DNA from: Elusimicrobia bacterium GWA2_51_34
GTDB lineage: Bacteria > Elusimicrobiota > Elusimicrobia > Elusimicrobiales > UBA9959
Direction of reading: 5' to 3'
Assembly (NCBI GenBank): GCA_001799565.1
Contig: MGTS01000031.1
Location: 1 to 57,306 of the forward strand
Length of the DNA stretch: 57,306 nucleotides
Shown: positions 6,315 through 43,068 of the stretch, piece after piece
Position numbering within the stretch: the stretch's first letter is position 1
Layout of the letters: every line of letters starts with the position of its first letter
Notes under the pieces: model-generated
The model's database searches: none
What the model was told of the DNA's origin: nothing
Seen by the model: only the letters and a program-made list of their open reading frames with translations
Position numbers and translations under genes: made by a program

Positions 6315-6518
6315 CCTGGGACTAGGATTCGAATCCTAACGCGAGACATAATTATGTGTCGCTGTCCCGGAATGATGAAAACACCCTTTTCAGGGGGTTT
6401 TTAAAAATTTTCTTCGGGACTAGGATTCGAATCCTATCGCGAGCCAAGCAGTTGGCTCGCTGTCCCGGAGCCAAGAAAAAACCCCCTTGAAAGGGGGTTT
6501 TGAAATGTGGCTCCGGGA
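6315..6518 (-). repeat. Tandem array of tRNA-Gln-like mini elements and hairpins
   Basis: Two units of about 57 bases (6315-6371 and 6413-6469) read on the minus strand as TCCGGGA, a single hairpin in place of the D and anticodon arms, then TTCGAATCCTAGTCCC. These flanks equal the 5' and 3' acceptor and T-arm of the tRNA-Gln at 48862-48935. Each unit alternates with a C5/G5 hairpin (6379-6403 and 6475-6501). A third part, TGGCTCCGGGA at 6508-6518, equals the CCA end of the same tRNA. The rest of the gap 6106-6644 holds nothing coding. Confidence 0.6.
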
Positions 6519-9436: not shown

Positions 9437-12400
9437 TTAGTATGCCAGCGAAGGCAATTCTATTTTCTGATAGATATTGTCTCTGTCCACTGTCGGATGC
9501 TGTAGTTCCCCGGTTTCCCTAGCGACTGCCGCTGCAACAAATTCCTTTAGCTCATCCGAAGAAATACTTTTGTCGCCATTTGTGTCAGCGGTTTTATCTG
9601 TAAGCGCGTTAAGAATCTCTTCCGTGAAATATCCATTCTCTATCGAGGGACTCTCATAGGACACCTCCCCACCACGAGAGGATGAGAACACAATGGCGCC
9701 GGAGCGCCTGGCCAAATTATTATATATGAACCTGTCTTTCTCGTAAAGGTAACTTCGCCCCGGAAATCCCGCTTCCCCGCGCGTTTTCAGCGGCTTACGG
9801 GATGTTCGGGGCTTGAATCCCCGTGCATCCGCTATAGCATAATACTGACCATATGTTTCTTCGTCCAACTCTCCTGATTCGCAGGTGTCAAGCAGAAACA
9901 GCTTTTTTCTCGGTTTTATATCGTTAAGCAGATCCTCTATTGTTTCAAAATCCACAGAAGTGGCCGGAAAATTTTCCGGGTCCGCGTCGTAGAGAAGATA
10001 GTAATATTTCGGATCTTTGCCTTTATCATAACCTCCGTGTCCTGCCGCAAAAAGTATAACCGTGTCATCAACCTTCGCATTTTTCAGAAATTCTTTTGCT
10101 TTTTTGATATTTTCAACCGTCACATCGGCATTTATAAAGGTTTTTGTATGCACAGCGTTATAATTCTGACCCATTTTTAATATTGAGTTTTCCAAATCCT
10201 TGGCGTCTTTATCGGCATATGCAAGGTGAAGCTCGGGGTTTTTATATTTGGAAATTCCTAACCCAAGGTAGTACAAGTCCCCTTTTTCCTTTCCGTCGTA
10301 GTCGGCGTATGTTGAGGCCCGGTATGATTCTGCTCCGGCGGAATTAAGCGCGGAAACCTCTATTTTGTTCTTTCCGGGCGCCAGTTCTATTTTTTCACTT
10401 CCGTTGAATACATTACCGGATATTATATTCCCATAAGCCGGTATTACCGGGACATTGTTGACAAAGATGTTGTAACTTTTTAACGGGAATTTCGAATCCG
10501 CAACAGTAAAACTTAACGCTAGAAATTTGCCATCGCGCACCATGGAATTTATTTTAGCTTCCGGCACATGCAGCTCGCCGCTGAGGTCCGCTTCCGTAAG
10601 CCCAAGTTTTTTCAGGCGTTTCTGGTATTGTGAGTAATAATGGGATATCTGTTCCGATGAACCTATCCCCATCCGCTCAAGTATCAGGTCGGGCCTGTTA
10701 TTTCGCGCGGCAAACTGTTCTATACCGTAGGCTTCAAGCCCTTTAACCATGGCTGCCAGCTCTCCGCCGTGCGGTGATGCGTCAAAATATCCGTCCGGAG
10801 TGTAGACTAACCAATCAGCGCCGCTTGATATCATCGCAATGCTTTGGTCATTGGCCAGGTTCCATAGGCGGATCGCACCATCATCGCCTGTTGATGCCAG
10901 GAATCTGCCATCACGGCTGAAACTTAAACTATTGACATGTCCGGCATGCCCGCTTAATGTTTTTTTTATTTTAGATGTTATCGGATCCCACATTTGTATT
11001 TTGCCGGAATCCAGCGTGACCGCCAACAGGTTCCCCGCATCGCTTAATTTTACTATTGGCTGGTCCGGCAGTCCTTTTATTTTAAATTGCGACTGCAATT
11101 TTCCGTTGAACGAAATAATCTTCACTGTATCGTCCGTTATCGTAGCCAGCATATTTCGCCCGGGAGAATAGGTTAAATACTTGCTGTTTTGATATTGCAC
11201 AAACCAGCGCTTACGGTATATATCCCATATACCGCTTGAAGAAATCAAGAACCTACCCGTAGCGTCGAACAGAATTGTTAGAGCGTGCCTTTGCTTAACC
11301 GGCATTTCTCCCACAACATTCCCGTTGTCAATATCTTGTATTTTTACAACTAACTTTTGATTCTGAACCGGCGGATTTCCACTTACACTCACAGTAACAA
11401 AAGCGATAAGTTTATTGTCCCAACTTAACGCCACCGGACCAGCGGCACCCTCGAATATTTTGAGTGTTTTTCCGGTGGAATCTCTTATGGTTACCGGCGT
11501 GTCGGAAATAATCCGAGACCCGTCACGGCTGAAACCCACGCAACCTTTCTTACCAACGTCATAGCCCAACTCTCTGATTATTTCCCCGCTGATGCCCCAC
11601 AACTTAAGGCTGGGATAGACGTGCTCGGAAATTATTTGTTTTCCGTCAGGACTGAGATCGGCCATTACAGGCTGATCATTGGCTTGTTGTATGATTCTCT
11701 CTATATTTCCTGGTAAAACGTCCAGAACAACTATTCCGTACGCTCCCATACTGCTTGAACTCGTATGACCTGGAGAAACCTCAGTGTTTTTTTCAAATGT
11801 TTTTATAACTAATGTTACAGCCAGATGCTTTGAATCAGGGCTGAAAGACACCCCTGCCGTTTTCCCGGACAGTAACGGCAACGGCAAGTCCGCGATCCTT
11901 ATATTGCTAAGATCTTTCGCATTAAAAAAGAAAGCCTGCATGGTCTTGTCGGGATGAAAAGAATCCATCGGAGTTATTAGCGCAAGCGTTTTGCCGTCAG
12001 GACTAAATTTTAATATCGGAGGATCGGACATTCTTTCCCGGTTGAACTTAATGTTCGCACTACGTATCACATTAAAATTCGAGTCCAACAATTGAATGTC
12101 GTTGGAGAAACGAGGTACGGCCGCTGCAAAGCGGCCGTCGGGGCTTAAAGCAAGTGTTAGATACTCTGATGAATAATGTGCCAGCTCTTTGGCATCAGAG
12201 TCCCACCGTTTTATTACTGACTCTCCAAAACTAGAAATAGCCATAGTGATAAATTCCCCGTTTTTTTTAAACCCGACAAATGATACGAAGCCGTTATGTG
12301 CGGCATTTCTAACGATAAGGCGCGAGGTCTTGTAATCCCATAATTCGATATCGCCATTTAGCCTGCCCACAAGGACTTTTTTACCGTCCGGCGATATTTG

Positions 12401-12796
12401 CATTGCCGTTATAGGGAAGGTTGCTGGCGAAGAAAATGTGCGTAGAACAGAGCCGGATTTGAGATCAATTTTTTTTATGCCGCTGTTCAGAAATGTTAAA
12501 ACAAGTTTGCCTGCGTTATCGAATGTGATACCGGTTATAGTATCAGTGGAGATGGAAAATTCCCTTATAAAATGTCCATTGGGACTCCACAATGTTACAT
12601 AATTATTATTGTCGGAAACGGCGATTAGCCGGCCACCCGGACTGAAAGCCAAAGGAAATGAATTTCCGTGCCCTTCGGAAAGCGTTATTTTTTGCGGCCG
12701 TATTTCGAACGGCGCCGTTTCTTTGGCGTAACCCGGTAAACTGGAAAAGAATATACCAAAGGACAACGCTTGAGCCACTAAGTGTCTTTGTTTCAT
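9437..12796 (-). CDS. Secreted WD40-repeat protein with C-terminal caspase (peptidase C14) domain
   Basis: 1119 residues. A signal peptide (about 1-24, FFSSLPGYAKE) is followed by about 600 residues of WD40-type blades with repeated SPDGK/SxDGR turns and one canonical blade (LSGHAGHVNSLSFSRDGRFLA ... GAIRLW). A linker follows, then a caspase-fold domain with the dyad His920 (FAAGHGGYD) and Cys972 (LLDTCESGEL). Near the end DTNGDKSISSDEL is an EF-hand-like calcium loop (about 1070-1082). Caspase-WD40 fusions are known in bacteria as probable regulated proteases, usually cytosolic; the signal peptide here is unusual. GGGGG lies about seven bases before the ATG. Substrate unknown. Confidence 0.85.
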   Translation of the reverse strand: MKQRHLVAQALSFGIFFSSLPGYAKETAPFEIRPQKITLSEGHGNSFPLAFSPGGRLIAVSDNNNYVTLWSPNGHFIREFSISTDTITGITFDNAGKLVLTFLNSGIKKIDLKSGSVLRTFSSPATFPITAMQISPDGKKVLVGRLNGDIELWDYKTSRLIVRNAAHNGFVSFVGFKKNGEFITMAISSFGESVIKRWDSDAKELAHYSSEYLTLALSPDGRFAAAVPRFSNDIQLLDSNFNVIRSANIKFNRERMSDPPILKFSPDGKTLALITPMDSFHPDKTMQAFFFNAKDLSNIRIADLPLPLLSGKTAGVSFSPDSKHLAVTLVIKTFEKNTEVSPGHTSSSSMGAYGIVVLDVLPGNIERIIQQANDQPVMADLSPDGKQIISEHVYPSLKLWGISGEIIRELGYDVGKKGCVGFSRDGSRIISDTPVTIRDSTGKTLKIFEGAAGPVALSWDNKLIAFVTVSVSGNPPVQNQKLVVKIQDIDNGNVVGEMPVKQRHALTILFDATGRFLISSSGIWDIYRKRWFVQYQNSKYLTYSPGRNMLATITDDTVKIISFNGKLQSQFKIKGLPDQPIVKLSDAGNLLAVTLDSGKIQMWDPITSKIKKTLSGHAGHVNSLSFSRDGRFLASTGDDGAIRLWNLANDQSIAMISSGADWLVYTPDGYFDASPHGGELAAMVKGLEAYGIEQFAARNNRPDLILERMGIGSSEQISHYYSQYQKRLKKLGLTEADLSGELHVPEAKINSMVRDGKFLALSFTVADSKFPLKSYNIFVNNVPVIPAYGNIISGNVFNGSEKIELAPGKNKIEVSALNSAGAESYRASTYADYDGKEKGDLYYLGLGISKYKNPELHLAYADKDAKDLENSILKMGQNYNAVHTKTFINADVTVENIKKAKEFLKNAKVDDTVILFAAGHGGYDKGKDPKYYYLLYDADPENFPATSVDFETIEDLLNDIKPRKKLFLLDTCESGELDEETYGQYYAIADARGFKPRTSRKPLKTRGEAGFPGRSYLYEKDRFIYNNLARRSGAIVFSSSRGGEVSYESPSIENGYFTEEILNALTDKTADTNGDKSISSDELKEFVAAAVARETGELQHPTVDRDNIYQKIELPSLAY

Positions 12797-13395
12797 TCTT
12801 ATGCCCCCGGCTGAAGATACAGATTCCTAAAGTTATAGTAGCAAAAAGGCTATAAAAAACTGAATGGGATTTAGAAGGATTGACGTTCCTCAAAAAAATG
12901 GCCCGGTTTTCATGGGGAAGGTTAACCCCACCTAAGTCGCGCCTCCCAATAAACTGGCCAACCATATACCTTCAATAACACGGGAATAGGGAGGCAAACC
13001 GGTTAACCTGTGAAAACGGGAAATACTCTGATTTAGATGCTTTGATGGTTACTGGCAAGGCCTTGGGCGGCAATTTGGTGGAATGGATGATGGATTTATC
13101 GCATCTGAACGGGGACGGGCCAGATTTCCCGACGGGAAAAAGAAAAGCGGCGGTTAACCTTAACCGCCGTCAGTTCGAACCATCTAAATCTGGCTCCCCG
13201 AGCCGGAAAAGAATCCGAACTTCGGAAAACAGGGAGATTGGCACCAGGAGCCGGTGTAGAATCCGAACTCACTTCACTTTCCCTCTGATAATCGGCTTAA
13301 ATCAGGCAAGAAAACAACGGAGCGGCATTGTTCTGCCACTAGAGAAGGGGTGGCTCCCTCTGGAAGAACTCCCGAGGCCCCGCGTTAAACCCTCT
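12797..13395. other. Gene-free stretch with nested inverted repeats and tRNA 3'-end remnants
   Basis: 12902-12926 and 13001-13020 form long arms (CCCGGTTTTCA...GGTTAACC and complement), with GCCTCCC (12941) and GGGAGGC (12989) nested inside. From 13148 to 13280 come a hairpin, GTCAGTTCGAAC, TGGCTCC and two copies of the pattern GAGCCGG...GAATCCGAAC. These look like several decayed tRNA T-arm/CCA ends. An open frame runs through here on the plus strand but its peptide is just a translation of these repeats. Confidence 0.5.
13221..13242 (+). other. Candidate attachment site (left direct repeat)
   Basis: This 22-base sequence, beginning TTCGGAAAACAGG, is repeated exactly in the same orientation at 48844-48865, where it includes the discriminator and CCA of tRNA-Gln. 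It is the left boundary of the proposed 35.6-kb element. Confidence 0.55.
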
Positions 13396-13605
13396 TTGGA
13401 CGCAATTCTAGCCAGTCTGGGCCCTATAAAGACCATTGGACAGAGAATTAGATACCACCGCGTTAAAAACCGCTTAAAACAGGAAGACTTGGGTAAAAGA
13501 CTTGGGGTTGGAAAAACAGCAGTGTGTCAGTGGGAACAGGGGCAGACCAGCCCCAGAAAAGAGTTTATCAAACCCCTTTCGGCGGCTCTGGGGGTTTCTT
13601 TTTAA
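13396..13605 (+). CDS. XRE-family helix-turn-helix protein
   Basis: The last 57 residues, from TIGQRIRYHRVKNRLKQEDL to KPLSAALGVSF, are a complete XRE-type helix-turn-helix (recognition helix near GVGKTAVCQWEQG). The open frame extends far upstream but through tRNA-like repeats, so the real start is unclear. I use an in-frame TTG at 13396, without a good ribosome site; a start near 13315 behind CGGAG is also possible. First gene inside the left boundary and convergent with the Hsp70 operon, overlapping its last gene by 38 bases. It may be the element's repressor or the tail of a broken protein. Confidence 0.55.
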   Translation: MDAILASLGPIKTIGQRIRYHRVKNRLKQEDLGKRLGVGKTAVCQWEQGQTSPRKEFIKPLSAALGVSF

Positions 13606-13762
13606 ACTTTTCAGCTGAGGCTTCTTTAGTGTTAACGTTCTCTAACGAAACCCTATTATTGTTTTCATCTACCCAACCCTGACTCCGGGCATAGAGATAA
13701 GCTCCGCGGAGTAAAAGCCGCGCGAGACGTTCCTTGCGTTCCGATGGAGTCAAGTGTTCCAT
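13568..13762 (-). CDS. Small basic protein, last gene of the Hsp70/HerA operon
   Basis: 64 residues: MEHLTPSERKERLARLLLRGAY then LYARSQGW and a Lys/Pro-rich tail. The N-terminal helix pair looks like a short DNA- or protein-binding segment; I do not recognise a family. The ATG lies four bases after the stop of the lipoprotein gene with no ribosome site of its own, so it is translated by coupling. Confidence 0.5.
   Translation of the reverse strand: MEHLTPSERKERLARLLLRGAYLYARSQGWVDENNNRVSLENVNTKEASAEKFKKKPPEPPKGV
13570..13602 (+). terminator. Terminator inside the end of the XRE gene
   Basis: AAACCCC and GGGGTTT pair around a GC-rich loop, followed by CTTTTT. The stem codes for the last residues of the XRE protein. 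Confidence 0.6.
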
Positions 13763-13765
13763 AAT

Positions 13766-14359
13766 TTATTTTTTTCCGCATCTCCGGTAGAAGCTTATTA
13801 ACGCCGGCGTGAACGTGTTCGGATTCGGGACAAAGCCCGGGTTCAGGCTTATGACCTGTGAAAAATATCTGCCAGCCTCGCTACGCCAACCCAAATAGAA
13901 AGAACATGCGCCGGCATAGAAAATCGCCTGCGCTTTAGATTCAGGTGAATTCGCTTCTGCTGCCGCGATCAGCATTTTAGCCTTACAATTCTGATACCTG
14001 AACCTTTTAAAATCTTCCTTCCCCTCCTGAAAGGCTGGCAAAATGGGGTTTTTGGCCTGAGGTCCAGCAACACCAGAGCCCGGATTATCAGAACGCATTG
14101 CGCTCGAATCAGAAAGGTTGGAGGCCGGGGAATTAAAGCCTGTGCTTTCGGGTATGACCACTGTTCGGGGAACATCATCGCTCCCACGCCTAGGCTGCGG
14201 GTCCCCGTCCCTTGCGGCCCTTTGGCGCTTTCTTGATTCATGTGCTTGCGCAAAAAGCGAATAGACTCCGATCCCCAGATAGATATGCCCCGTAGTGGTT
14301 CCGGCGCAGCCTGTCTGCAAGACCAGGCACATTATAAGACAACAGGTTCTGAGCTTCAT
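13766..14359 (-). CDS. Lipoprotein with TPR-like C-terminus
   Basis: 197 residues. The signal peptide MKLRTCCLIMCLVLQTGCAG has a clear lipobox (LQTGC). A charged, Pro/Ser-rich middle (about 50-110) is followed by a helical part, KAQAIFYAGACSFYLGWRSEA then YFSQVISLNPGFVPNP, that reads like one and a half TPR units. It would face the periplasm from a membrane. It overlaps the upstream J-like/PEGA gene by four bases. Its role would be to anchor or sense for the operon's machine on the outer face (inference). Confidence 0.6.
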   Translation of the reverse strand: MKLRTCCLIMCLVLQTGCAGTTTGHIYLGIGVYSLFAQAHESRKRQRAARDGDPQPRRGSDDVPRTVVIPESTGFNSPASNLSDSSAMRSDNPGSGVAGPQAKNPILPAFQEGKEDFKRFRYQNCKAKMLIAAAEANSPESKAQAIFYAGACSFYLGWRSEAGRYFSQVISLNPGFVPNPNTFTPALISFYRRCGKK

Positions 14360-15102
14360 CTCTTCTCCCAGTCAGCCACCTCAGCGCTTTCACACGTCCC
14401 TTCATCCAGGTGGACTTTCAAAACATATTTGCGCTCCCGTTCAATTGGAATGCGCTGTTCTAAGGCCGGATACTCAGGATTAATAAAGCGAAACTCCACT
14501 GTGCCGCCGACATCAATCCTAAGGGGATTTATAAAAGGCGCACTGGCACAATATTTGCCGTTTATATACACCTGAGCCACCGGATCAGATAAGACCAACA
14601 CGTACGCTGAACTCCCCCCGGTGCCGCTTTTCCGGCCGCCGAAAAGGCCTATCATGCCCATCATAAAGCTCATCCCAAGGATTATAGCCGCAACCTGTGG
14701 GGTGGTGTTTAGAAATTGGGAAATAATGCCTAGGAACCTGCACAATTCCCCAAAAATAAAATCAAAGGGACCGACGTTCGTATTTATCCCACCGCCGGCG
14801 TAGCCTGGGTTCGGCCCATGTGTATATATTGGCGGCGACTGCCTCCGTTTGGTATGTCTATTCGAAGTTGAAGGGTTCGGCGAGGGAGGTGCCGCAGACA
14901 CATTTAAAAGAATATCCTTGGCCTCCCCCGCCTTCACCTTTTCCCTGTCCAAGCGGTCCTGCTCAGGACCAGCTGCTAGAACATAAGCATTATTCAATCC
15001 CCTCATCTTCGAAGTATAAGCGTCCTCCACCTGTTTCTTGCTATACGGTGGGCGTATCTTTAGGAGCGCCTCTGCCTCTGACAAGGTCATTGAACCAGTC
15101 AT
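14356..15102 (-). CDS. Membrane protein with J-like N-terminus and PEGA domain
   Basis: 248 residues. Residues 5-65 (LSEAEALLKIRPPYSKKQVEDAY ... EKVKAGEAKDIL) follow the helix pattern of a J domain, but the HPD tripeptide that triggers Hsp70 is absent (RPPY at that place). A Pro/Ser/Gly-rich linker and a transmembrane helix (about 133-155, IILGMSFMMGMIGLF) follow. Residues about 168-238 are a PEGA beta-domain (LVLSDPVAQVYINGKY ... NPLRIDVGGTVEFRF). Placed beside Hsp70 and GrpE it is a plausible membrane co-chaperone. Gap of five bases to the vWA gene. Confidence 0.6.
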   Translation of the reverse strand: MTGSMTLSEAEALLKIRPPYSKKQVEDAYTSKMRGLNNAYVLAAGPEQDRLDREKVKAGEAKDILLNVSAAPPSPNPSTSNRHTKRRQSPPIYTHGPNPGYAGGGINTNVGPFDFIFGELCRFLGIISQFLNTTPQVAAIILGMSFMMGMIGLFGGRKSGTGGSSAYVLVLSDPVAQVYINGKYCASAPFINPLRIDVGGTVEFRFINPEYPALEQRIPIERERKYVLKVHLDEGTCESAEVADWEKR

Positions 15103-15107
15103 AAGGA

Positions 15108-15746
15108 TTAGCCCCCTTCCTTTATAACCAACTTATTGCTCATCTCGATGAAATGGCGCTCCAGGTTCTCCCTGTCGCCTATCCAGCGGTAGAGCACCCC
15201 CCTCTTGTTATGGATACTGGCTATCTTGCGAAGCGTGTCTTCATCCAGCAACTCCCGGTCACCGATACCAACACACTCCACAATTATCCCCTCAGCCTTA
15301 AGGGAGGCCGCCACCTTAACGGGGTTCCCAATTCCCGAATGCCCACCATCGCTGAGAAGAATAATCCTCCGGCTTACAGAAACTTTTCTAAACCAGCCAG
15401 GGGCTATCGCCCGACCTGCCTCCTTCAGGCCTGCTACCATTTCGGTGGTGCCTTTGATCTCAATAGCTTTTACTGCATTGAGCAGCTTGTGATATCCGGT
15501 CCGCACCGGCACAAGCGAGCAGCAGATTTCCGCTGATGAGCCAAAGGTAATTATTCCAACTTGGTCGTCAGGGCTATCCGTATGTTTACGTTCGATGAAT
15601 TTAACCGCCGCCTCCTTCATAGCTTCCAAGCGGCTAGGCGGGTAATCATCATCGGCCATGCTTCCAGAGATATCCAGAAGCAGGATCACAGCTTCCGGCT
15701 CGCCCGGAATTGCTTCCAGGCGGCCTGTAGGTATTCGCCACAGCAT
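15108..15746 (-). CDS. von Willebrand factor A (vWA) domain protein
   Basis: 212 residues, almost entirely a vWA domain. The metal-binding MIDAS site is complete: DISGS (about 25-29), the Thr of KGTTEM (about 100) and the Asp of LLSDGG (about 133). No signal peptide, so it works in the cytosol. Stand-alone vWA proteins commonly bind partner ATPases or chaperones. It sits four bases after the Hsp70 gene, in the same operon as a HerA-like ATPase. A role as metal-dependent adaptor is an inference. Confidence 0.8.
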   Translation of the reverse strand: MLWRIPTGRLEAIPGEPEAVILLLDISGSMADDDYPPSRLEAMKEAAVKFIERKHTDSPDDQVGIITFGSSAEICCSLVPVRTGYHKLLNAVKAIEIKGTTEMVAGLKEAGRAIAPGWFRKVSVSRRIILLSDGGHSGIGNPVKVAASLKAEGIIVECVGIGDRELLDEDTLRKIASIHNKRGVLYRWIGDRENLERHFIEMSNKLVIKEGG

Positions 15747-15750
15747 AGGC

Positions 15751-17310
15751 TTACCCCTCCTTCAGCTTGTCCAGGTCTCTTTTCTTAGCCTGAACCTCGT
15801 CCTTGCTCAGCCCCGTCTTGTGCTCAATCTCCTTGAAGACGGTGCTCTTGCCGGCGGTATCCCTCACATAGCAGCGCAGGATTCCAGACGGCGTGAGTTC
15901 CAGCTTTACTTCTATCCGCTCTGTGGGGTTCGCCTCAGGTGGAAGGTCAGTGAGCTGAATCCTGAAGATTTCCTTGCAGTCATCCGCCAGGGTTCCAGGC
16001 TCACCCTCAAGCAGGCGAACAAGCGCTACCGTCGATGTCGGTTCCTGGAGCATGTACTTCTTTGTAATGCTTGTGCCCAGGGAGAAGCCCTTCTCAAGGA
16101 TGACAGATATCTTTTCCTTGGACTCCCCCATCAGGATAGCTCCGACACCTATGCCGTGAGTCAGGATATCACGGATGTCGGGCAGGCGCGCACCACCCAC
16201 CACCAGAGACTTCCCTTCCTTCTTAGCGAGCTCTGAGGCTCCATATATTCCGGCCCCCATCGCTACTGCGAGGTCTATGTCTACTATCCCCTCTTTCAGC
16301 GGCTCAACCCCAGCGATGCTAGCCATGAGAGGGCGGAAGGCGGCCAGCCGTGAACTGCCGCCGACCAGCAGCACTTTGTCCGGCTTAACCTTGTTCTTCT
16401 CCAAGAGGCCCCTGGTTATCTCAACGATCTTGTCTAGTTGGGGCTTCGCCAGCGCGCTGAGCTCATCCTGGGCGTAAGGGAAAGAGACATCCTGCCCTTT
16501 GGCCTCCATAGAGAACACATGCTTGTCCTTCGATGCGAGGATGCGCTTTGTCTGTTCCGCGCGCTCCCGGATCATCTGTAAGAAGCGCATATCTTCGGAA
16601 GAAGTCCGGTCGAACTTAACTCCGACCTTGTTAAACTTCCCCTCAACATGCGCTGCCAAGTTCCCCGTAATGTCCTCTCCACCCAAGCTGGTATCGCCGG
16701 CCGCATCTAGTATGACCAGTTCATCACCCTCTTTGCGGAGCAGGGTGCTGTCGTAGGTCCCGCCGCCGAAATCGCAGACAAGCAGGATTTCATCAGACTT
16801 CAGCCCTGTGTTGTATGCGATAGCCGCGCAGACAGGCTCATTGACGATGCGCAGCACCTTAAACCCCGCTATCTCAGCGGCCTGCTCGGTGGCCTTGCGC
16901 TGCCCTTCACCGAAGTAATGGGGAGTGGATATCACCGCCCACGTGATATCCCTTCCCAGAGCAGTCTCAGCATCCGCTTTCAGCTTCTTAAGCAGGATGG
17001 CTGAGAGGTCTATCGCAGAGTAGCTTTTCCCATTCTCATCTCGGTAGGTTTCCAGCGGCTTCCCGTCCGAGTCAAGCTTCCCCACGGAACGCTTAAACTT
17101 GCTCATGGTTTCAAACTGCATGGACTGGTTAGCCGCAGCCCTCCCAACAAGCGGCGAACTACCTGGCGGAAAAGCGATAACAGATGGGGTCATCTGCTCA
17201 CCTTCCGCGTTCCGCAAGGTCTCCACCTTGCCCTCACTGTTGACCCACGTGACCGCGCTGTTGCTGGTACCCAGGTCGATACCTACCACCAGTTCACTTA
17301 TCTTGTTCAT
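15751..17310 (-). CDS. Hsp70 (DnaK-like) chaperone lacking the lid
   Basis: 519 residues from the chosen ATG (17310), which has GGGAGG six bases upstream. The nucleotide-binding domain is intact: VGIDLGTSNSAV (phosphate 1), LLVCDFGGGTYD (phosphate 2) and VLLVGGSSRL (adenosine). The substrate domain keeps only the beta part (RIEVKLELTPSGILRCYV, ending GLSKDEVQAKK); the alpha-helical lid of ordinary DnaK (about 100 residues) is missing. Such short Hsp70s are usually dedicated to a single partner. It overlaps the GrpE gene by 17 bases, and no canonical DnaJ is present. Confidence 0.85.
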   Translation of the reverse strand: MNKISELVVGIDLGTSNSAVTWVNSEGKVETLRNAEGEQMTPSVIAFPPGSSPLVGRAAANQSMQFETMSKFKRSVGKLDSDGKPLETYRDENGKSYSAIDLSAILLKKLKADAETALGRDITWAVISTPHYFGEGQRKATEQAAEIAGFKVLRIVNEPVCAAIAYNTGLKSDEILLVCDFGGGTYDSTLLRKEGDELVILDAAGDTSLGGEDITGNLAAHVEGKFNKVGVKFDRTSSEDMRFLQMIRERAEQTKRILASKDKHVFSMEAKGQDVSFPYAQDELSALAKPQLDKIVEITRGLLEKNKVKPDKVLLVGGSSRLAAFRPLMASIAGVEPLKEGIVDIDLAVAMGAGIYGASELAKKEGKSLVVGGARLPDIRDILTHGIGVGAILMGESKEKISVILEKGFSLGTSITKKYMLQEPTSTVALVRLLEGEPGTLADDCKEIFRIQLTDLPPEANPTERIEVKLELTPSGILRCYVRDTAGKSTVFKEIEHKTGLSKDEVQAKKRDLDKLKEG

Positions 17311-17815
17311 TGTGTCCTCCCTTGTTTTTGCACCGCATCTGAACCACAACTCCGGCCGGCCTGACCACCTTATCTTTCACCTTGTAGCCAAACCTCAACT
17401 GCTTTACAATGCACGGAGATTCCGAGGGCCCTTCCACAACATGCTCAGCCCGGTGTAGCAGCGAGTTAAAGGCTCCATCTATTGAAATGGGCTCAAGGCC
17501 CGCCCGCTCAAGTATTCCCTCCAATTCCAGCCGCAGAGAGGCTAATTTGGGCCCGCGCCTTTCCAGGCTTTCAAGACGATCCAAGAAAATCAGAAGGTCC
17601 CGGACGAGGCCTTCAAAAGCCCCCATCGGGATAACAACCCCGCTGCTCTCAAGGCGCTGGATGATACCCCGCGCCACACCAGCCGAGAAAGCAGGACCAT
17701 TAATTTCCTCAATTATTTTCCCGACTTCCTGATTGTTTTTTCCAAGGCTGGAAAAAATGTTTTCTAGCCGGGAATTAATCCGCGACAACAGCAGTTTGAC
17801 CATGTGCCTTTTCAT
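17294..17815 (-). CDS. GrpE-like nucleotide exchange factor
   Basis: 173 residues. The C-terminal half follows the GrpE beta-domain: LELEGILERAGLEPI, then HRAEHVVEG and GYKVKDKVVRPAGVVV. The N-terminal half is helical with LLIFLDRLESLE, shorter than the long coiled coil of ordinary GrpE. It would reset the neighbouring Hsp70. The start at 17815 has AAGGAG four bases away; a second ATG at 17803 is possible. A 121-base gap separates it from the ATPase gene, room for an internal promoter. Confidence 0.75.
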   Translation of the reverse strand: MKRHMVKLLLSRINSRLENIFSSLGKNNQEVGKIIEEINGPAFSAGVARGIIQRLESSGVVIPMGAFEGLVRDLLIFLDRLESLERRGPKLASLRLELEGILERAGLEPISIDGAFNSLLHRAEHVVEGPSESPCIVKQLRFGYKVKDKVVRPAGVVVQMRCKNKGGHNEQDK

Positions 17816-17936
17816 ATGGCTCCTTTAAGTATTAATTCCTTATATTACTGCCGAAATACTTTTTTCCTCAAACCTTCCGTTACAGATGACACCCCCTTTT
17901 TTTCCTGTAATTAATCAGGAATAAAGTTGAATGCCT

Positions 17937-20150
17937 TTATACTAGGGCAATCACACCCAAAGCCGGCCGGCCATGCCCAGTATGCGGCAACGGCACCGTT
18001 TTAACCAAGCTCTTGGCTTTCATGGTGCACAGAACCCTCTGCCAGGCGCCTCCATTAAGGCCTGTGTGCTGGCGGAGTTCAGGAATGCTGATTGCCCGCC
18101 CGTGCAGCTTCAGGTATTCTCTGGCTGCGGTCAGAACGCCTTCCTCAGCCGGGCTGCGGTCTGTTTTATAGATTATGTTGGCAGTAGACTGAGGGTTTGC
18201 CCGCAAGGCCATCCCAAAGCCCTGATTCACCGCCCGTATCTCTTCATCACTCAATTCGCGTACCGAACTGAGGGGCGGCCGTATATAGGTCTTGATACCC
18301 GGTATCCCGGGAGCAATTATGAGCGCCTCACCAACATTGAGGGTCTTCACAGTCTCGGCAGCCGCCTTTGTAGAAAAACCAGCCACGTACTCAAGTTCGG
18401 CCTTATCAGTGGACTTGAGGAGAAACCGTGCCCCCACCATATCTCGTACCGACCGTCCGCCTGCGCCTTTATAGTCACAAAGCGATTGGGAAATAAGTGT
18501 CATTGATAAGCCGTACTTGCATTTTTCGCGGGCTATGCGGGTTATAAGCGTGAGAACCTCTCCTGCCATAGCCTTAGCTTCCGGCGACCTTACACCGCCG
18601 GGAAGACAAGAATGAGCTTCCTCAATAACCAGCGAGAGGGCCACATCCGTTGTTTCTACGGACAGCTCGTTATTGATCATTTGGAGTATGTCGCGTACGT
18701 AGGTGCACCTGGCAAGGTCAGGATCTTCAGAGCGCGTAGCCAAGTCTTTAAAGGTTACCGCAGAATAACCGACCATCAAGTCGCGCAGGTCATCAGGAAG
18801 GGGCATACCAACCGGGCTACCAGGAGTATAAATCCTGAACTCAAAGCCCCTGGCATAACTGCGCGGAATCTTGAGCGTGTCATACCTTTCCATTACCTTG
18901 GAATCAGAGGCCGGCTTTGTCAGCCCAGTTGACTGCCTGGTTGGATCTAGTATCAGAATTGTCTTTACCCCAGCTGCAATCTCATTCTCGGTCTGGACTG
19001 CACGGACATAACTTTTCCCGCCCCTTGTTGCACCACTGTCATAAGTTATCCCCGGTTTTATCGGGTAATACAGAGGGATTTCGCTAATATTAGCTCCCTC
19101 CATAACGAAACCGAGCAGTCCACCATATTTCGGCAGCGAATAGGTGGGCACTAAGGCGGCCGGTGCCGTATCAAGCTTGACCAGGACGTTCTGAAACATT
19201 TTGGCCGGCATGGCCTTGCTTGTCTCAACAACAACCCCTTCCTTGGTAATGATGTCTTGATTGCAGGAAAGCATCAGGCAAGCTTCTATTTCACGCTTAA
19301 GTGCTTCAAAGCCGGCGGAGCCGAGGCAGGCCAGTTGGCGGGGGCTATCAACGGCCTCCCACTCTGCCATGAAGAACATGCTGGGGACCTTCATCTCAGA
19401 AACCGTTACTTTGAACGCCCCCATCAATTTCTGCTTAATCTCGAATTGATCCACTTCAGTGACGTCCTTGAGTATTCCAGCGAGAGCAGCACAGAACTCA
19501 TCGCCATTGCTGGCAACTACAAGCGGTGTTGAGTATGTAAACCTAAAGAGGCTCAGTCGGCCATGGGTCTGGTATTTCCCCTGCAGGTCCGCTATATTCT
19601 CTGTGACCTCGCGCCTTTCCTTAGTGGCCGCTGCAAGTTCCTGAGTTCTAGCCTTTATGGCACGCTCTTTATCGAAGAGGTAGCCTTTGGCTACCCCGTC
19701 AGTGGCCTCTCCGCGCTGTAGCAGCTCACGCATGCTTTTGGTATAGGAAAGTTCTTGCGCGTTCTTTTCTGCAGCCTTATTTATAAAGTCTAGCGCGGCG
19801 TTCGGATCCGAGTCGACCGGCACCTTCAGTACTTCCTTTGCCCTGAGGAGCGACAAGGTATCTGTAGCATCCCCGAGAAAAGAAATACTGAGATGCGCCG
19901 TCCCAAGACGTTCAAGTGCATCCTGAATATTGGGCAGTTCCCTGACGAAAGTCTCCCCGTCCTTAGTGATATTTTTGAGAACATAGGATTTTGCTGCCTT
20001 AAGGGCAATCATGTTTCCAACCAAGCGAGCAACTACGAGCACCCCGTCCTTCAACCAATATGAGGCTGGATACTGCACCTTGCTCTGGGCTATCCTAATA
20101 AAGCCGGCGGCACGCATAGCCCGGCGCATGTATGAAGGGTTATGGTTCAT
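17937..20150 (-). CDS. HerA/TraG-like P-loop ATPase
   Basis: 737 residues. Walker A GATRGGKS (373-380), Walker B LSLVIEEAH (506-513), and later LISQS and ARFLLKS segments typical of HerA-FtsK motors. Residues 1-340 are a family-specific part with a coiled coil (about 160-190). The C-terminus (about 660-735) is a winged helix (EYLKLHGRAISIPELRQHTG). Hexameric motors of this group move DNA or protein in conjugation, repair and phage defence. It is the motor of this operon. It overlaps the zinc-finger gene upstream by 11 bases. No relaxase or VirB-type channel gene is seen nearby, so conjugation by itself is not supported. Confidence 0.8.
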   Translation of the reverse strand: MNHNPSYMRRAMRAAGFIRIAQSKVQYPASYWLKDGVLVVARLVGNMIALKAAKSYVLKNITKDGETFVRELPNIQDALERLGTAHLSISFLGDATDTLSLLRAKEVLKVPVDSDPNAALDFINKAAEKNAQELSYTKSMRELLQRGEATDGVAKGYLFDKERAIKARTQELAAATKERREVTENIADLQGKYQTHGRLSLFRFTYSTPLVVASNGDEFCAALAGILKDVTEVDQFEIKQKLMGAFKVTVSEMKVPSMFFMAEWEAVDSPRQLACLGSAGFEALKREIEACLMLSCNQDIITKEGVVVETSKAMPAKMFQNVLVKLDTAPAALVPTYSLPKYGGLLGFVMEGANISEIPLYYPIKPGITYDSGATRGGKSYVRAVQTENEIAAGVKTILILDPTRQSTGLTKPASDSKVMERYDTLKIPRSYARGFEFRIYTPGSPVGMPLPDDLRDLMVGYSAVTFKDLATRSEDPDLARCTYVRDILQMINNELSVETTDVALSLVIEEAHSCLPGGVRSPEAKAMAGEVLTLITRIAREKCKYGLSMTLISQSLCDYKGAGGRSVRDMVGARFLLKSTDKAELEYVAGFSTKAAAETVKTLNVGEALIIAPGIPGIKTYIRPPLSSVRELSDEEIRAVNQGFGMALRANPQSTANIIYKTDRSPAEEGVLTAAREYLKLHGRAISIPELRQHTGLNGGAWQRVLCTMKAKSLVKTVPLPHTGHGRPALGVIALV

Positions 20151-20685
20151 GGGTTATCTCCTTGGCGATATCAGCCCCCAGTTCCGCGAGTTTCTTTTTA
20201 AGGCGGTTCGCTTGCATAATCACCATAAGGTCGTCACCTTCCTCCGAAGAACCGCTATGGCCGGATTGAAAGATAGATAACTCTTCTTTGAGAAGTTCTA
20301 TTTTTTTATCAAGTATGTACTTGCGGTTTTCGAGTGCTTCATTACTCTCGATACCCTGCTTCTGCTCAGCAGCGCACTTGGGGCAACATTTCTGCGCTTT
20401 GGCAAGTTCGCCAACGGAGGAACGGTGGCTCTTGCAGAGAGGGTTGCCGCAAATACACTTGGCCTCACATAAAACGCAAGTCGCAATGCCGCAGACGCTG
20501 CAATTCCCTCTCTGGTCCCGGGCTCCCCCTGCAAGCGCAGCACCACAGTTCGGGCAATTGGAGAAAACATTTATATGAGTCTCCGTTATCTGTTCCCTCT
20601 CGTCGTCAGTCATGTCGGACTTATGCTTGGCATAGGTGCGCCCGAACTGATCCACCTCAAGTTCATTTTTTATTACCCTTTTCAT
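20140..20685 (-). CDS. Zinc-finger protein with C-terminal coiled coil
   Basis: 181 residues. Residues about 44-105 carry many paired cysteines: CPNCG, CSVCG, CVLCEAKCICG, CKSH and CCPKC, enough for two or three zinc sites. Residues about 120-170 are a coiled coil (YILDKKIELLKEELSIF ... RLKKKLAELGADIA). Good ribosome site GGAGGCGG. Its Cys/His layout resembles that of the next gene upstream, so the two may be paralogous adaptors. Role unknown; its position just before the ATPase gene suggests a partner of that protein. Confidence 0.65.
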   Translation of the reverse strand: MKRVIKNELEVDQFGRTYAKHKSDMTDDEREQITETHINVFSNCPNCGAALAGGARDQRGNCSVCGIATCVLCEAKCICGNPLCKSHRSSVGELAKAQKCCPKCAAEQKQGIESNEALENRKYILDKKIELLKEELSIFQSGHSGSSEEGDDLMVIMQANRLKKKLAELGADIAKEITHEP

Positions 20686-20699
20686 TGCCGCCTCCTTCT

Positions 20700-21215
20700 T
20701 TACTGCGCATCCATCTTCTTTGCCTCTTCCTCCGCCTTCTGTCTAAGCCGCCAAGTGTTGGCCTTTTTCCAAACTTCCGGAAAGCATGTAAGACAGTATT
20801 TTTTGTCACCGCTTCCGTCATCCAGTTCCTCGAGATGAGACGGGCAGAAGTAGCGTTTGCATTTAGCGCAGTAGCCCATCCGGGATTTAAGCCCATACCC
20901 ATTACATCCCGGATACTGACACTGCCCCCCTATACCGGAGAGATCTGTATGTTCGCCAAATGAGCTCAGGTGAAAAAAGCGCTTTACGTAATACCGCGGA
21001 CCGCTCGCAGTCTCCTGGGCAACTTCCATCTTTGTGGGAAACCCTTTGGAGTTGATTACGGCAGGTTGCTCATGACAGACCCTGGTGCCAAACTCTTCTG
21101 ATGGGGATATTGGGATATCATTGGTCGGTGGCACCGCCGGCCCCGTTGGCGGCGTAGTGGGGACCACCGGTGCCTGTATAAGGAATTTTAATATCTTCGC
21201 GAAGATACTATTCAT
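20700..21215 (-). CDS. Zinc-finger protein with Pro-rich N-terminus
   Basis: 171 residues. An amphipathic start MNSIFAKILKFLIQ, then a Pro/Thr-rich stretch (about 16-38), a beta-like region with RYYVKRFFHLSSF, and a C-terminal zinc module CQYPGC ... CAKCKRYFCPSH ... YCLTCF. Start at 21215 because GGAGG lies nine bases upstream and the ATG overlaps the stop of the membrane-protein gene (TAATG). Family not recognised. The C-terminal helix is Lys/Glu-rich. Confidence 0.6.
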   Translation of the reverse strand: MNSIFAKILKFLIQAPVVPTTPPTGPAVPPTNDIPISPSEEFGTRVCHEQPAVINSKGFPTKMEVAQETASGPRYYVKRFFHLSSFGEHTDLSGIGGQCQYPGCNGYGLKSRMGYCAKCKRYFCPSHLEELDDGSGDKKYCLTCFPEVWKKANTWRLRQKAEEEAKKMDAQ

Positions 21216-21628
21216 TAGCCTTGCCTCCAAGATATAATGAACTGGATAATTACAAGAAACACGAAAAGGGCACGGAAGATAGTGGTTATCGTTCTCTGGT
21301 TGCCTGCATACTGCGATAAATAGAAGGCTATGTGCTCCGGGAGCCTGATGCAAGCCAGCGTGGCGGTTATAAGCAAGAAGAGGTATAGTTGGGGGCACAA
21401 CTTTCTGAGTAAGTAGAAATTGATGCTGAAAACTGTAGTTGTAGCCACGTAGAACACAATGACATTCAGGAAAGAGTTTTTAATCCCCCTGTTCCACGCC
21501 AGAGTAAAAAGCAGAAGGGCGAGCAGGAACCAGAGCCCGAAGCGGAACAGCAAGCTATGCATCGGAGAGAATCTTGCCGCATACGCGGTGTTAACTATTT
21601 TTTCCCAGGTCAGCCCAATGACATCCAT
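21215..21628 (-). CDS. Four-helix integral membrane protein
   Basis: 137 residues with four hydrophobic segments (about 25-43, 50-72, 78-96 and 112-134), for example FGLWFLLALLLFTLAW and LFVFLVIIQFIISW. No recognised family. It is part of the operon and the likely membrane anchor for the soluble components. AGGAG precedes its ATG (RC of the bases at 21629-21640). Confidence 0.6.
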   Translation of the reverse strand: MDVIGLTWEKIVNTAYAARFSPMHSLLFRFGLWFLLALLLFTLAWNRGIKNSFLNVIVFYVATTTVFSINFYLLRKLCPQLYLFLLITATLACIRLPEHIAFYLSQYAGNQRTITTIFRALFVFLVIIQFIISWRQG

Positions 21629-21644
21629 AAGGTTATCTCCTCAG

Positions 21645-21827
21645 CTATCTTTTAGGCTCCGTGAGTAACAGCCCACCATTCACGGCCACTTTGCCCTCAA
21701 GGCCCCAGTCCGAAAACCATTTCAGGACAACCAGGTCCTTTTTAAGGTCTACTGAGAGCACCTTAACACGGCAGCCGCGCGGCGATAAATAAAGCTTGCC
21801 TACAACAGCTTCACGTGCAAAAACCAT
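21645..21827 (-). CDS. Small beta-rich protein
   Basis: 60 residues from the ATG at 21827, which has GGAAGG six bases upstream; the open frame extends to 21890 but through a hairpin. The pattern MVFAREAVVGKLYLSPRG ... VLSVDLKKDLVVLKW suggests a small SH3-like or KOW-like barrel. No family recognised. Second gene of the operon. Confidence 0.5.
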   Translation of the reverse strand: MVFAREAVVGKLYLSPRGCRVKVLSVDLKKDLVVLKWFSDWGLEGKVAVNGGLLLTEPKR

Positions 21828-21838
21828 AACAACCTTCC

Positions 21839-21873
21839 CGCCCCACACCCCAAAGTTCACAGGGTGTGGGGCA
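21839..21873 (-). promoter_or_regulatory. Hairpin just before a ribosome site
   Basis: On the minus strand CCCCACACCC pairs with GGGTGTGGGG around a nine-base loop, ending a few bases before the GGAAGG of the gene at 21827. It could set the expression ratio between the first gene and the rest of the operon. No T-run follows, so it is not a terminator. Confidence 0.45.
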
Positions 21874-21893
21874 CACATTACATACGACACGGA

Positions 21894-22052
21894 TTACACG
21901 GAGTGCGTGCTTACCTGTTGGACACACATTGCCGCGAGTTCAGATAACTCTTCTTTAGACAACGCAATCAACTCTTTTTCGAGCACAGCATTGTCTGTTA
22001 TCCCGAAGAAGGTTTTAATGGCCTCTAACGATATTTCCCCCGTTGTGTTCAT
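21894..22052 (-). CDS. 52-residue helical protein, first gene of the Hsp70/HerA operon
   Basis: The minus strand reads MNTTGEISLEAIKTFFG, then LEKELIALSKEELSEL and AAMCVQQVSTHSV before a TAA. AGGAGGAATT directly before the ATG is the strongest ribosome site of the region. It is acidic and helical and I do not recognise a family. A product this short can be missed by gene callers. First gene after the promoter region, so possibly a regulator. Confidence 0.6.
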   Translation of the reverse strand: MNTTGEISLEAIKTFFGITDNAVLEKELIALSKEELSELAAMCVQQVSTHSV

Positions 22053-34862: not shown

Positions 34863-35351
34863 ATGGCTATAAACATTGATAATTATAATCTAGTGAAAGC
34901 TCCAACGACTCATGACCTGGTAGCCAGGCTTTTCGGAGACAGGCTGGAACGGCAAAGACTTTCCGTGGCCGAGATATCTGCGCTAATTTCAGAAAGACAA
35001 AACATGCTCCAGAAAAACATAAAGACTCTGGATGATCAACTCTGCACTGTCGGTGGCATTAAAAGCACTTTCAACTGGATACATTATGCCCCAGATCTTG
35101 CCACACTTCTTAAAGATAAGCTTAGCCTGGAGAAAACTGTAAATGAGCTGGACATGAAAAAGGCGGATGAATACAAGCAGTGCTGGAAAGACATAAGCAC
35201 GCTCAGGATGGAACTTTTGGAAGGCCTGGCGGAATACATGTCCATCCACAACAAAGCGGAGATGTTGGCCCCGACATATTCCAATCCGCCGGCCCAGTCC
35301 CCGGCACAGCCATTAGCCTATGCGCTGCGCAAGCTTAACCCATACTCATGA
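34863..35351 (+). CDS. Helical partner gene of the HerA-nuclease
   Basis: 162 residues from ATG 34863 (AGGA six bases before; a GTG at 34848 is also in frame). Mostly helical: FGDRLERQRLSVAEISALIS, DDQLCTVGGIKSTFNW and LKDKLSLEKTVNELDMKKAD form a coiled coil of about 100 residues; the C-terminal 30 residues are Pro-rich. No family recognised. Its stop overlaps the ATPase start by four bases, so the two proteins are made together and probably bind each other. Confidence 0.6.
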   Translation: MAINIDNYNLVKAPTTHDLVARLFGDRLERQRLSVAEISALISERQNMLQKNIKTLDDQLCTVGGIKSTFNWIHYAPDLATLLKDKLSLEKTVNELDMKKADEYKQCWKDISTLRMELLEGLAEYMSIHNKAEMLAPTYSNPPAQSPAQPLAYALRKLNPYS

Positions 35352-37423
35352 CATTCAAAACCTCGGATGAAAAAGTGAAGGAGATGCTTATTAGCCTGCG
35401 CCCCGCCATGGGCGCGCAGGAAACCGAGAACATCTGGCAGGCCTATTGCCTTAGTGACGAAAAGATGAAGTCCGAGCTTGAGGAGTTGATAGGTCTTATG
35501 GTTTACAGAGAGCTTGGCAACGGACTTGGCGCAGAATTGGCGTTCTTTGTTCCCCCTCCCAAGGAAATGGCCGACGGCAAATACCCGCTGGGCAATGTTC
35601 TCTACGGCGGGAAACTTCTTTACCCGTTCGGCCTTAATGAAAAGGAAGTGGCGGAACACGTTTCCATAACGGGACGTAGCGGCGCCGCCAAAAGCACGCT
35701 GTTGTTCCATATACTACAAGGAATGCTTCAGAAATCCCCGGATGTCAAAATTCTGGCCTTCGACTGGAAGAGGGAACTTCGGGCCCTTACCCTGCACCCC
35801 GTATTCGGCGATAAAGTGCAGGTCTACACGGTGGGCAGGGAAGATGTGTCGCCCCTACGGTTTAATCCGCTTATCCCGCCGCCAGGGACCACTATCACCA
35901 ATCACATGGAGCAACTGCTGGATATTATCTGCCATTGCTTCTATGCCGGGGAAGGGGTGTTTGACATACTTACAAGGGCCATAGACGCCTGTTACAGGGA
36001 TTTTAAGGTGTATGATGGCAAAGCGACCCAATACCCCACCTTCAGGGACGTACACGTCAAAATAGACAGCTTTGACCTGAAGGGCAGGCAAAACGAGTGG
36101 AAATCCTCGGCTTTAAGGATAACCAGGACGCTCGGGTTCGGCGAATTCGGGAAGGTTGTAAACACGCCGCAGAATGACCTAAGCGGCCTTATAGAAAATA
36201 ACACTATACTGGAACTGGACGCCCTGCCGATGGCAAAAAGGGTGTTTTTCATAAGCGCACTGCTGGCTTGGCTTTATAATTACTCGCTGGCCAGAAAGAC
36301 CAACGAGGCAGACTATGGCAGAAAGCTGAACAGGATTATTGTTATTGAAGAAGCCCACAATGTGGCAATGAAGCACGCAGCCGGCGCGAGGGAGTCAATA
36401 CTTGAGCTGATGATAAGGCAGGCGAGGTTCCTAGGCATGGGCATGATACTGGTGGACCAGACCCCCAGCCAGCTCTCCTCCACTGTGATGGCCAATATAC
36501 ACACAAGCATAAGCCTGAACCAGAAGAACAGCGGAGACATAAGCGCGGCCGCCGCCAACCTGCTTTTGGATGAGAAGCAGCGGGATCAACTGAGCATGCT
36601 GAAGGTCGGAGAGGCCATAGTGAGACTTTCAGACCGCTTTTTAACACCGTTCATGATAAAGACCGACATCGTGCCAATAAAAGAGCAAACCGTGACCGAC
36701 GCGGCCATACGGGGGCATACAGCGGCCCCGAGCGGTGGTTATTCCGCCTATTCCCCTCCGGAAGCACCGCAGATAAGGCCGGCGCCAACTGATTCCGCCA
36801 ATGACAAACTAATAGATGATGAAATTAAAATTCTAAGGGACATTATGGAATACCCATTTATAGGCGTGGCAAAACGCTATAAAAGGCTATTTTTAAGCGC
36901 CAGAAAGGGCAATGACCTGAAGGAAGCATTGGCCGGCAGGGGAATTATAGTAACAGAGGAAATAAACACCGGCAACGCTAACCTTGTGCTGCTAAAGCCC
37001 ACGGAAGCCGGGCTTAAACTGGCCAAGGAACTTGGCCTTGAGCTGAAGAAAGTAGATTACCGTGCGTCACTGGAGCACGAGTATTGGCGCCACAAGGCGG
37101 CTAATTTTTGCAAGGCCCTTGGCTATCAGGTGGAGTTTGAGGTGCCGGTTAACGGCAATGCCGATATTGTGGCCAGAAAATCCGATTTAGCAATAGCTAT
37201 AGAAGTTGAGACCGGCAAGAACAATATTCCATATGCAGTAGGCAATATTAAAAAGAACCTTACGAAGGGGTTTGAGCGGGTGATAGCGCTGGTAAGCGAC
37301 GGGGCTTTTTTGGAGAGACTGCGCCTGCAATTAAAAGAAGAGAACCTGGATTCTGACGAAAGAGTCAAAATTCTGCCGGCCCACCAGTTCTGCGCGGGAA
37401 AGACGGATAATAAACCAAACTGA
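35348..37423 (+). CDS. HerA-family ATPase with C-terminal PD-(D/E)XK-like nuclease
   Basis: 691 residues. Walker A GRSGAAKST (109-117), Walker B IIVIEEAH (330-337) and LVDQTPSQL (sensor) define a HerA/DUF87 motor of archaeal style. After a linker (about 460-490) and a winged-helix region, residues about 574-680 look like a restriction-type nuclease: Asp606 (NADIVA), then E619-V-E621 and Lys624 (AIEVETGK). HerA usually works with a separate nuclease; a fused one is less common. Frequent AGG/AGA and ATA codons and the lack of a ribosome site differ from the neighbours. Possible role in DNA transfer, plasmid maintenance or defence. Confidence 0.75.
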   Translation: MTFKTSDEKVKEMLISLRPAMGAQETENIWQAYCLSDEKMKSELEELIGLMVYRELGNGLGAELAFFVPPPKEMADGKYPLGNVLYGGKLLYPFGLNEKEVAEHVSITGRSGAAKSTLLFHILQGMLQKSPDVKILAFDWKRELRALTLHPVFGDKVQVYTVGREDVSPLRFNPLIPPPGTTITNHMEQLLDIICHCFYAGEGVFDILTRAIDACYRDFKVYDGKATQYPTFRDVHVKIDSFDLKGRQNEWKSSALRITRTLGFGEFGKVVNTPQNDLSGLIENNTILELDALPMAKRVFFISALLAWLYNYSLARKTNEADYGRKLNRIIVIEEAHNVAMKHAAGARESILELMIRQARFLGMGMILVDQTPSQLSSTVMANIHTSISLNQKNSGDISAAAANLLLDEKQRDQLSMLKVGEAIVRLSDRFLTPFMIKTDIVPIKEQTVTDAAIRGHTAAPSGGYSAYSPPEAPQIRPAPTDSANDKLIDDEIKILRDIMEYPFIGVAKRYKRLFLSARKGNDLKEALAGRGIIVTEEINTGNANLVLLKPTEAGLKLAKELGLELKKVDYRASLEHEYWRHKAANFCKALGYQVEFEVPVNGNADIVARKSDLAIAIEVETGKNNIPYAVGNIKKNLTKGFERVIALVSDGAFLERLRLQLKEENLDSDERVKILPAHQFCAGKTDNKPN

Positions 37424-42966: not shown

Positions 42967-42979
42967 TTTATTGCCTCCA

Positions 42980-43021: not shown

Positions 43022-43068
43022 ATTTTTGTTTAGAACTTACTTCTTCCCTTAAATCGCCCTTTTTTATT

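Follow-up and report, generated by a model that had tools for sequence, protein, structure and literature searches.

A conserved operon combining a HerA-like ATPase with its own Hsp70-GrpE set on integrative elements of the Elusimicrobiota

The DNA analysed here, referred to as the window, comprises the 57,306 nucleotides of contig MGTS01000031.1 of Elusimicrobia bacterium GWA2_51_34, and our subject is a twelve-gene operon on its minus strand that joins a HerA-like ATPase to an Hsp70, a GrpE homologue, a J-like protein, a von Willebrand factor A (vWA) protein, and several envelope proteins. The operon is real, conserved, and undescribed as a set; the integrative elements that carry it form a defined family, and its function is predicted from sequence. 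It probably acts as a defence or element-transfer machine. Our preferred interpretation, to which we assign a probability of roughly 0.45, is that it encodes an envelope-tethered, Hsp70-gated HerA-like DNA machine that forms a backbone module of the element and has a role in conflict with, or defence against, competing DNA. The operon brings together two machineries not known to cooperate, a DNA motor of the HerA/FtsK class and a private Hsp70-GrpE-J set, and if the chaperone gates the motor, this would represent a new way of controlling DNA translocation in conflict or transfer.

Architecture and conservation of the operon

All twelve minus-strand open reading frames (ORFs) at positions 13568-22052 are open, begin with ATG, and are free of internal stops, with clear ribosome-binding sites at most of the gene starts (Table 1). 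The intergenic spacings, read 5' to 3', are 66, 16, -1, 14, -11, 121, -17, 4, 5, -4, and 3 nucleotides. A preliminary description of the window, made from the sequence alone, had proposed a single leftward unit of twelve genes; every ORF lies where it was placed, and the spacings given differ from those above by no more than one or two bases. Downstream of the last gene, a 9-bp hairpin is followed by a T-rich tail (13169-13148). Terminator-like sites in the region were more numerous than the shuffled mean, while the count of promoter-like sites did not exceed it. An ORF of the XRE helix-turn-helix (HTH) type on the plus strand (13300-13605) is convergent with the operon and overlaps the 3' end of the gene for the 64-amino-acid basic protein.

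Ten of the operon genes recur in the same order, at 37-77% protein identity, on contig MGUI01000004.1 of Elusimicrobia bacterium GWD2_63_28 (G142), a member of another genus; the 60- and 64-amino-acid ORFs are not among them. A third copy was found in a genome of the same genus as the window genome (G001), where the contig starts inside the Hsp70 gene and continues with those for the vWA, J-like, and lipoprotein components, leaving four genes. As ten genes are kept in order in another genus and four in a third genome, the operon is a genuine single conserved unit and not a chance list of genes, as the preliminary description had held, and its homologues were found together rather than scattered without their neighbours. 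For the five genes with an estimable rate of synonymous substitution (dS), the approximate ratio of nonsynonymous to synonymous substitution (dN/dS) is 0.10-0.13 with dS near saturation; a value of about 0.1 under these conditions indicates purifying selection and tells only of the preservation of protein sequence.

The operon is present in 3 of 341 Elusimicrobiota genomes, and the species bearing it are few and related. Profiles of the motor and Hsp70 matched only the window genome and G142, while that of the J-like protein added G001. Weak matches to the motor in G241 (E = 1.7e-4) and to the J-like protein in G338 (E = 6e-4) were rejected, the former being a generic HerA stretch with none of the operon genes beside it and the latter failing likewise. 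No relative of the motor was found in the plasmid, phage, or viral-contig collections; zinc protein 2, the J-like protein, and GrpE gave no useful match in the plasmid collection, and neither the vWA protein, zinc protein 2, nor Hsp70 matched any viral contig. Annotated plasmid Hsp70 matches at about 31-33% identity (Streptomyces, Sphingomonas, Bacteroides, Nostoc) were set aside as mostly housekeeping-type dnaK loci; the remaining plasmid matches carried no annotation. A contig scan with two peptide patterns returned only the G142 contig, its reach beyond the phylum being that of these patterns, so that distant relatives in other phyla are possible.

Table 1. Features of the operon and of the element that carries it, in window coordinates
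Feature	Position	Strand	Evidence
52-amino-acid protein, first gene	21894-22052	-	G142 homologue, 37% over 49 amino acids
60-amino-acid beta-rich ORF	21645-21827	-	not conserved in G142
Membrane protein, four hydrophobic segments	21215-21628	-	54% identity to G142 copy
Cys/His-rich (zinc) protein 1, 171 amino acids	20700-21215	-	AN1-like match, E 0.03; 53-54% identity with G142
Cys/His-rich (zinc) protein 2, 181 amino acids	20140-20685	-	IBR-like match, E 0.007; 63% identity with G142
HerA-like ATPase (motor), probable C-terminal winged-helix domain	17937-20150	-	motifs; 66-67% identity with G142
GrpE homologue	17294-17815	-	Pfam PF01025; 66-67% identity with G142
Lidless Hsp70, 519 amino acids	15751-17310	-	76% identity with G142; about 28-33% to DnaKs
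vWA protein, metal ion-dependent adhesion site intact	15108-15746	-	identity 69-70% (G142), 78% (G001)
J-like domain, one clear transmembrane segment, PEGA-like beta domain	14356-15102	-	identity 50% (G142), 62% (G001)
Lipoprotein, one TPR-like stretch	13766-14359	-	identity 43% (G142), 49% (G001)
64-amino-acid basic ORF	13568-13762	-	not conserved in G142 or G001
Terminator-like hairpin 3' of operon	13148-13169	-	hairpin and T-rich tail
29-nucleotide direct repeat, left copy (putative attachment site)	13221-13249		93% identity to right copy
29-nucleotide repeat, right copy	48844-48872		overlaps 3' ends of tRNA-Gln and recombinase gene
Large serine recombinase of window element	47240-48889	+	3' end overlapped by right repeat copy
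Second backbone block, common with G142 island	34863-43431		matches G142 50.65-58.86 kb
Second HerA/DUF87 ATPase	35348-37423	+	75% identity with G142
408-amino-acid protein	41271-42497	-	68% identity with G142
RadC	42514-43023	-	common to G142 island
DUF2958	43069-43431	-	common to G142 island

Components and their closest known relatives

The motor matches HerA models weakly (PADLOC, E = 8e-8; NCBIfam, 5e-5; PDB HerA, 3e-4), with scores well below the curated cut-offs, and HerA chains are its only structural sequence matches in the PDB. It contains a Walker A motif (GATRGGKS), a Walker B motif with EEAH, and the sequence RIAREKxKYG, which corresponds to the HerA-like RIARExxKYG; the functions of these motifs are established for HerA, and all three are kept in G142. 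The earlier label of "HerA/TraG-like" was half borne out, as the HerA models match while no TraG/VirD4 model is listed among the matches from NCBIfam, PADLOC, or the PDB, and by its motifs we class the motor as HerA-like and not TraG-like. No transmembrane (TM) segment is predicted in it. Its C-terminal 82 residues, at 76% identity with G142, are among its most conserved parts, match phrog_3502 (E = 2e-4) and, weakly, MarR, reach only E = 1.3 in a PDB profile comparison, and adopt a helix-helix-helix-strand-strand order in a low-confidence AlphaFold model; this domain is likely a winged helix. The two zinc proteins had been called related zinc-finger proteins: both are indeed Cys/His-rich, with no Pfam family match above its cut-off, and their relatedness is marginal (19-23% identity).

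The Pfam assignments of Hsp70 (PF00012, E = 7e-79), GrpE (E = 2.6e-9), and vWA (E = 1.7e-20) are secure, and the residues of the metal ion-dependent adhesion site (MIDAS) of the vWA protein are kept. The Hsp70 retains the ATPase motifs GIDLGT, NEP, and GGGT together with the catalytic lysine, while its linker reads IRDILTH in both the window and G142 copies versus the canonical VLLLDVTP, and the protein ends at helix A, where the lid (the alpha subdomain of the substrate-binding domain) would begin. In all three copies of the J-like protein, NNA occupies the HPD position. This protein has no J match in Pfam; it contains J-domain-like helices that give VIA Z scores of about 7-8 with many J domains, 5nro and 2guz (the Tim14-Tim16 entry) among them, and since a Z near 8 is attainable by chance, the assignment draws on fold, position, and sequence in combination. 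The lidless Hsp70, the intact MIDAS, and the absence of HPD had each been noted in the preliminary description and are upheld, as is its view of the chaperones as a private set: elsewhere the genome retains a complete, normal hrcA-grpE-dnaK-dnaJ operon, and the Hsp70, GrpE, and J-like proteins are thus extra. The coexistence of an HPD-less J domain, a lidless Hsp70, and this normal host operon turns the idea of an Hsp70 switch without a canonical J trigger into a testable question.

Loss of the HPD motif and of the lid would also fit a chaperone half that is a decoy or guard, in which degenerate J, Hsp70, and GrpE proteins sense the hijacking of host chaperones by phage and trigger the motor or the membrane proteins. 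The position equivalent to the J-contacting arginine (R167 of E. coli DnaK) points the same way, since the window copy has R there and the G142 copy L; bNACHT25 has been shown to sense phage through DnaJ (PMC12169576), and Kaur et al. propose decoys in GAP1-N2-type systems (PMC7159879). We nonetheless consider this explanation quite unlikely, given that the Hsp70 catalytic residues are kept and that the operon contains no known killing effector.

The envelope components comprise the four-segment membrane protein, the J-like protein with its PEGA-like domain (E = 0.018), and the lipoprotein with its TPR-like stretch (E = 0.014), both domain matches being weak and below cut-off. PEGA, a TPR lipoprotein, and membrane proteins would suit a machine for envelope stress, secretion, or assembly that is carried as cargo and is unrelated to conflict over mobile DNA; such a machine leaves the HerA-type DNA motor, the restriction to integrative elements, and the rarity of the operon unexplained, and we regard it as very improbable.

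The preliminary description knew of no system with this composition, a statement that holds for named systems, as the set matches no named secretion or conjugation system, and needs narrowing for predicted ones. Most of its components are shared by the predicted GAP1-N2/HSP70 conflict systems, which combine Hsp70, GrpE, a J domain, zinc ribbons, TM segments, PEGA, and TPR (PMC7159879). This theme, itself a prediction only, is the closest described kind, being likewise operon-encoded and membrane-proximal, with vWA in sister themes. The operon differs in having neither GAP1 nor the DO-GTPase, in that a HerA-like ATPase holds the place of the NTPase, in its HPD-less J-like protein, and in host range, as GAP1-N2 systems occur in actinobacteria and firmicutes and the operon on integrative elements of Elusimicrobiota. 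Searches for GAP1 gave no Pfam match at E <= 1 in ten operon proteins, and PF20013 was absent from G000, G001, G002 (a sister genome), and G142, with a positive C. glutamicum control; no GTPase match was found in the operon, whose sole P-loop NTPase is the motor.

The HerA-Sir2 and HerA-DUF4297 defence systems appear to share the class of motor, judged by the EEAH Walker B and RIARExxKYG motifs. The operon adds numerous chaperone and membrane partners, its motor falls far short of the HerA cut-offs, and no nuclease or NADase partner was recognised among its proteins. CoCoNuT type III systems similarly bring Hsp70-like, vWA, and HerA/FtsK-type proteins into one superoperon (PMC11090510); the Hsp70 of the operon keeps its ATPase motifs where CnuD is degenerate, GrpE and the J-like protein are additions, and no operon protein matched McrB or McrC in Pfam, NCBIfam, or PADLOC. 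MoxR-vWA ternary systems share the vWA protein, with no AAA+ protein detected in the operon by Pfam. The DnaK-DnaJ-GrpE machine likewise encodes Hsp70, GrpE, and a J-like fold together, but the operon set lacks lid and HPD, has an altered linker, and goes together with membrane proteins and a DNA motor. Because GAP1/DO-GTPase and McrB/McrC are missing, we do not file the operon under GAP1-N2 or CoCoNuT systems, nor, on its present gene content, under HerA-nuclease systems. No description of this composition was found in the literature searched, which left most subscription papers outside its range.

Element setting and proposed function

Every copy of the operon lies at the end of an apparent integrative element, with its 3' end facing the attachment (att) site or integrase. 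In the window, the two copies of a 29-nucleotide repeat are 93% identical and bracket 35.6 kb, while the tRNA-Gln/tRNA-Pro locus of G002 has no adjoining recombinase or operon. The 11-bp end of tRNA-Gln, TGGCTCCGGGA, has a further copy in the window at 6508, which suggests a second element stacked on the left. G142 has an exact 45-bp repeat of the 3' end of tRNA-Met, with one copy at 11275-11319 and the other some 60 kb distant at the intact tRNA-Met, a tyrosine integrase beside each end, and the operon as the first cargo next to the left integrase; the 60 kb with two integrases could represent two elements in tandem, and no third copy of the repeat was found. In G001, an excisionase-like ORF of the HTH_17 type comes after the 3' end of the operon, then a tyrosine integrase, and tRNA-Phe lies a short way further on. 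Direct att repeats and a site-specific recombinase thus mark the window and G142 islands as integrative elements whose excision is predicted.

Both islands run in the order operon, non-homologous cargo, second block, the last including small HTH proteins in addition to the genes in Table 1. In the window, the intervening cargo consists of genes for type I restriction-modification and of KwaB-like and DUF488 genes; in G142, it consists of LeoA/LeoB, SNF2 helicase/PLD, and kinase genes. As the islands are collinear around variable defence cargo, the operon looks like element backbone rather than cargo. The preliminary description had missed this setting, in which the operon is one of two collinear blocks. 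The second HerA/DUF87 ATPase occurs in 4 of 341 Elusimicrobiota genomes, two of which (G331 and G325, from other families; 32-40% identity) do not have the operon, so the blocks can separate; the 408-amino-acid backbone protein had no match in the plasmid collection. This arrangement defines an integrative-element family of the Elusimicrobiota, a phylum in which mobile DNA has received little study; in this family, two fixed blocks flank the defence cargo.

Because the operon behaves as backbone, the strongest rival to a role in conflict is that it serves to transfer the element itself: a HerA-type motor, with a winged-helix domain for recognising DNA, would pump double-stranded element DNA through an envelope complex in a TraB-like manner, and the Hsp70 set would assemble or reset the channel. 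TraB-driven transfer of double-stranded DNA is known in Streptomyces, and the TraB/FtsK-type systems of actinomycetes employ a pumping ATPase with a winged-helix C-terminus, encoded on an integrative element. The constant location of the operon on integrative elements, at the att or integrase end and in the same orientation, its collinearity with RadC, DUF2958, and the second ATPase, its membrane and lipoprotein subunits, and the conserved, winged-helix-like C-terminus of the motor are all consistent with such a role. The motor is, however, HerA-like and soluble, unlike TraB, and comes with a chaperone set, while Hsp70 and vWA proteins are not known to have a role in double-stranded DNA transfer; the G331 and G325 elements, moreover, carry the second ATPase without the operon. 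No relaxase, VirB4/VirB homologue, or outer-membrane channel was found among the scanned proteins of the window and G142 islands (a subset of their ORFs), in keeping with the earlier report that relaxase and VirB genes are absent. We regard transfer as possible but somewhat doubtful, and hold just as tentatively that the operon may encode an undescribed DNA machine, a HerA-type pump that is assembled in a diderm envelope, is driven by way of an Hsp70/GrpE/J-like switch, and provides a new integrative-element family with its apparatus for transfer or exclusion.

The preferred interpretation, a chaperone-gated machine shielding both the element and its host from competing DNA, is supported because defence genes adjoin the operon in both islands and because the predicted GAP1-N2/HSP70 conflict systems share its component list (PMC7159879). 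In such a machine, the four-TM protein, the TM/PEGA protein, and the lipoprotein would anchor a complex in the envelope, where the HPD-less J-like domain would dock the lidless Hsp70 at the membrane without canonical firing. The motor or its substrate may be handled by this dedicated chaperone: the Hsp70, reset by GrpE, would act as a nucleotide switch on the motor, and Hsp70, GrpE, and the vWA protein would form a threshold switch that holds or releases the complex of motor and zinc proteins. DNA would be engaged by the motor's winged helix, and release of the motor would allow the hexamer to load and either translocate or block the invading DNA. Several observations weigh against this proposal. 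No effector or nuclease gene was recognised in the operon, none of the PADLOC models describes it, and the defence genes nearby could be cargo with no link to it; an element function such as transfer or maintenance would explain the collinearity with the second block at least as well, and the AlphaFold model of the motor (predicted local distance difference test score of 38) is unusable, so that the hexamer and the winged helix are predicted features.

Additional features of the islands

The second HerA/DUF87 ATPase is preceded by a small protein (34863-37423, plus strand), and its C-terminus, ADIVARKSDLAIAIEVETGKN, resembles a PD-(D/E)xK-like fold by eye. HTH_17 excisionase-like proteins are encoded near the integrase in G001 (L034:2216-2386, on G001:C7) and inside the second block in the window (40238-40630), with 51% identity over 57 amino acids. 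The non-coding 200 bp that surround the left repeat of the window (13194-13393) are 81% identical to G001:C37:3467-3665, which contains an identical 29-nucleotide repeat and adjoins a Fic-like gene and an IS21-like element.

To the left of the operon, a 1119-amino-acid protein with WD40 repeats and a caspase domain (9437-12796) adjoins a sigma-70 region 2-like gene; it probably belongs to a neighbouring stacked element and lies outside the matching blocks. Tandem tRNA-like mini-elements lie by the tRNA-Gln-derived repeats, at 6315-6374 and 6413-6472 (minus strand) in the window and at L023 6786-6956 in G002. They combine a T-arm and a single long hairpin with an acceptor-like stem, lack a D-arm, and gave no match in Rfam; the two window copies fold far better than shuffles (z scores of -4.0 and -5.2), and the hairpin sequence differs on both sides between copies. 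Between tRNA-Gln and tRNA-Pro, at 49352-49412, lies a long palindromic repeat of a REP-like family, of which the host genome contains about 30 or more partial copies and sister genomes contain few.

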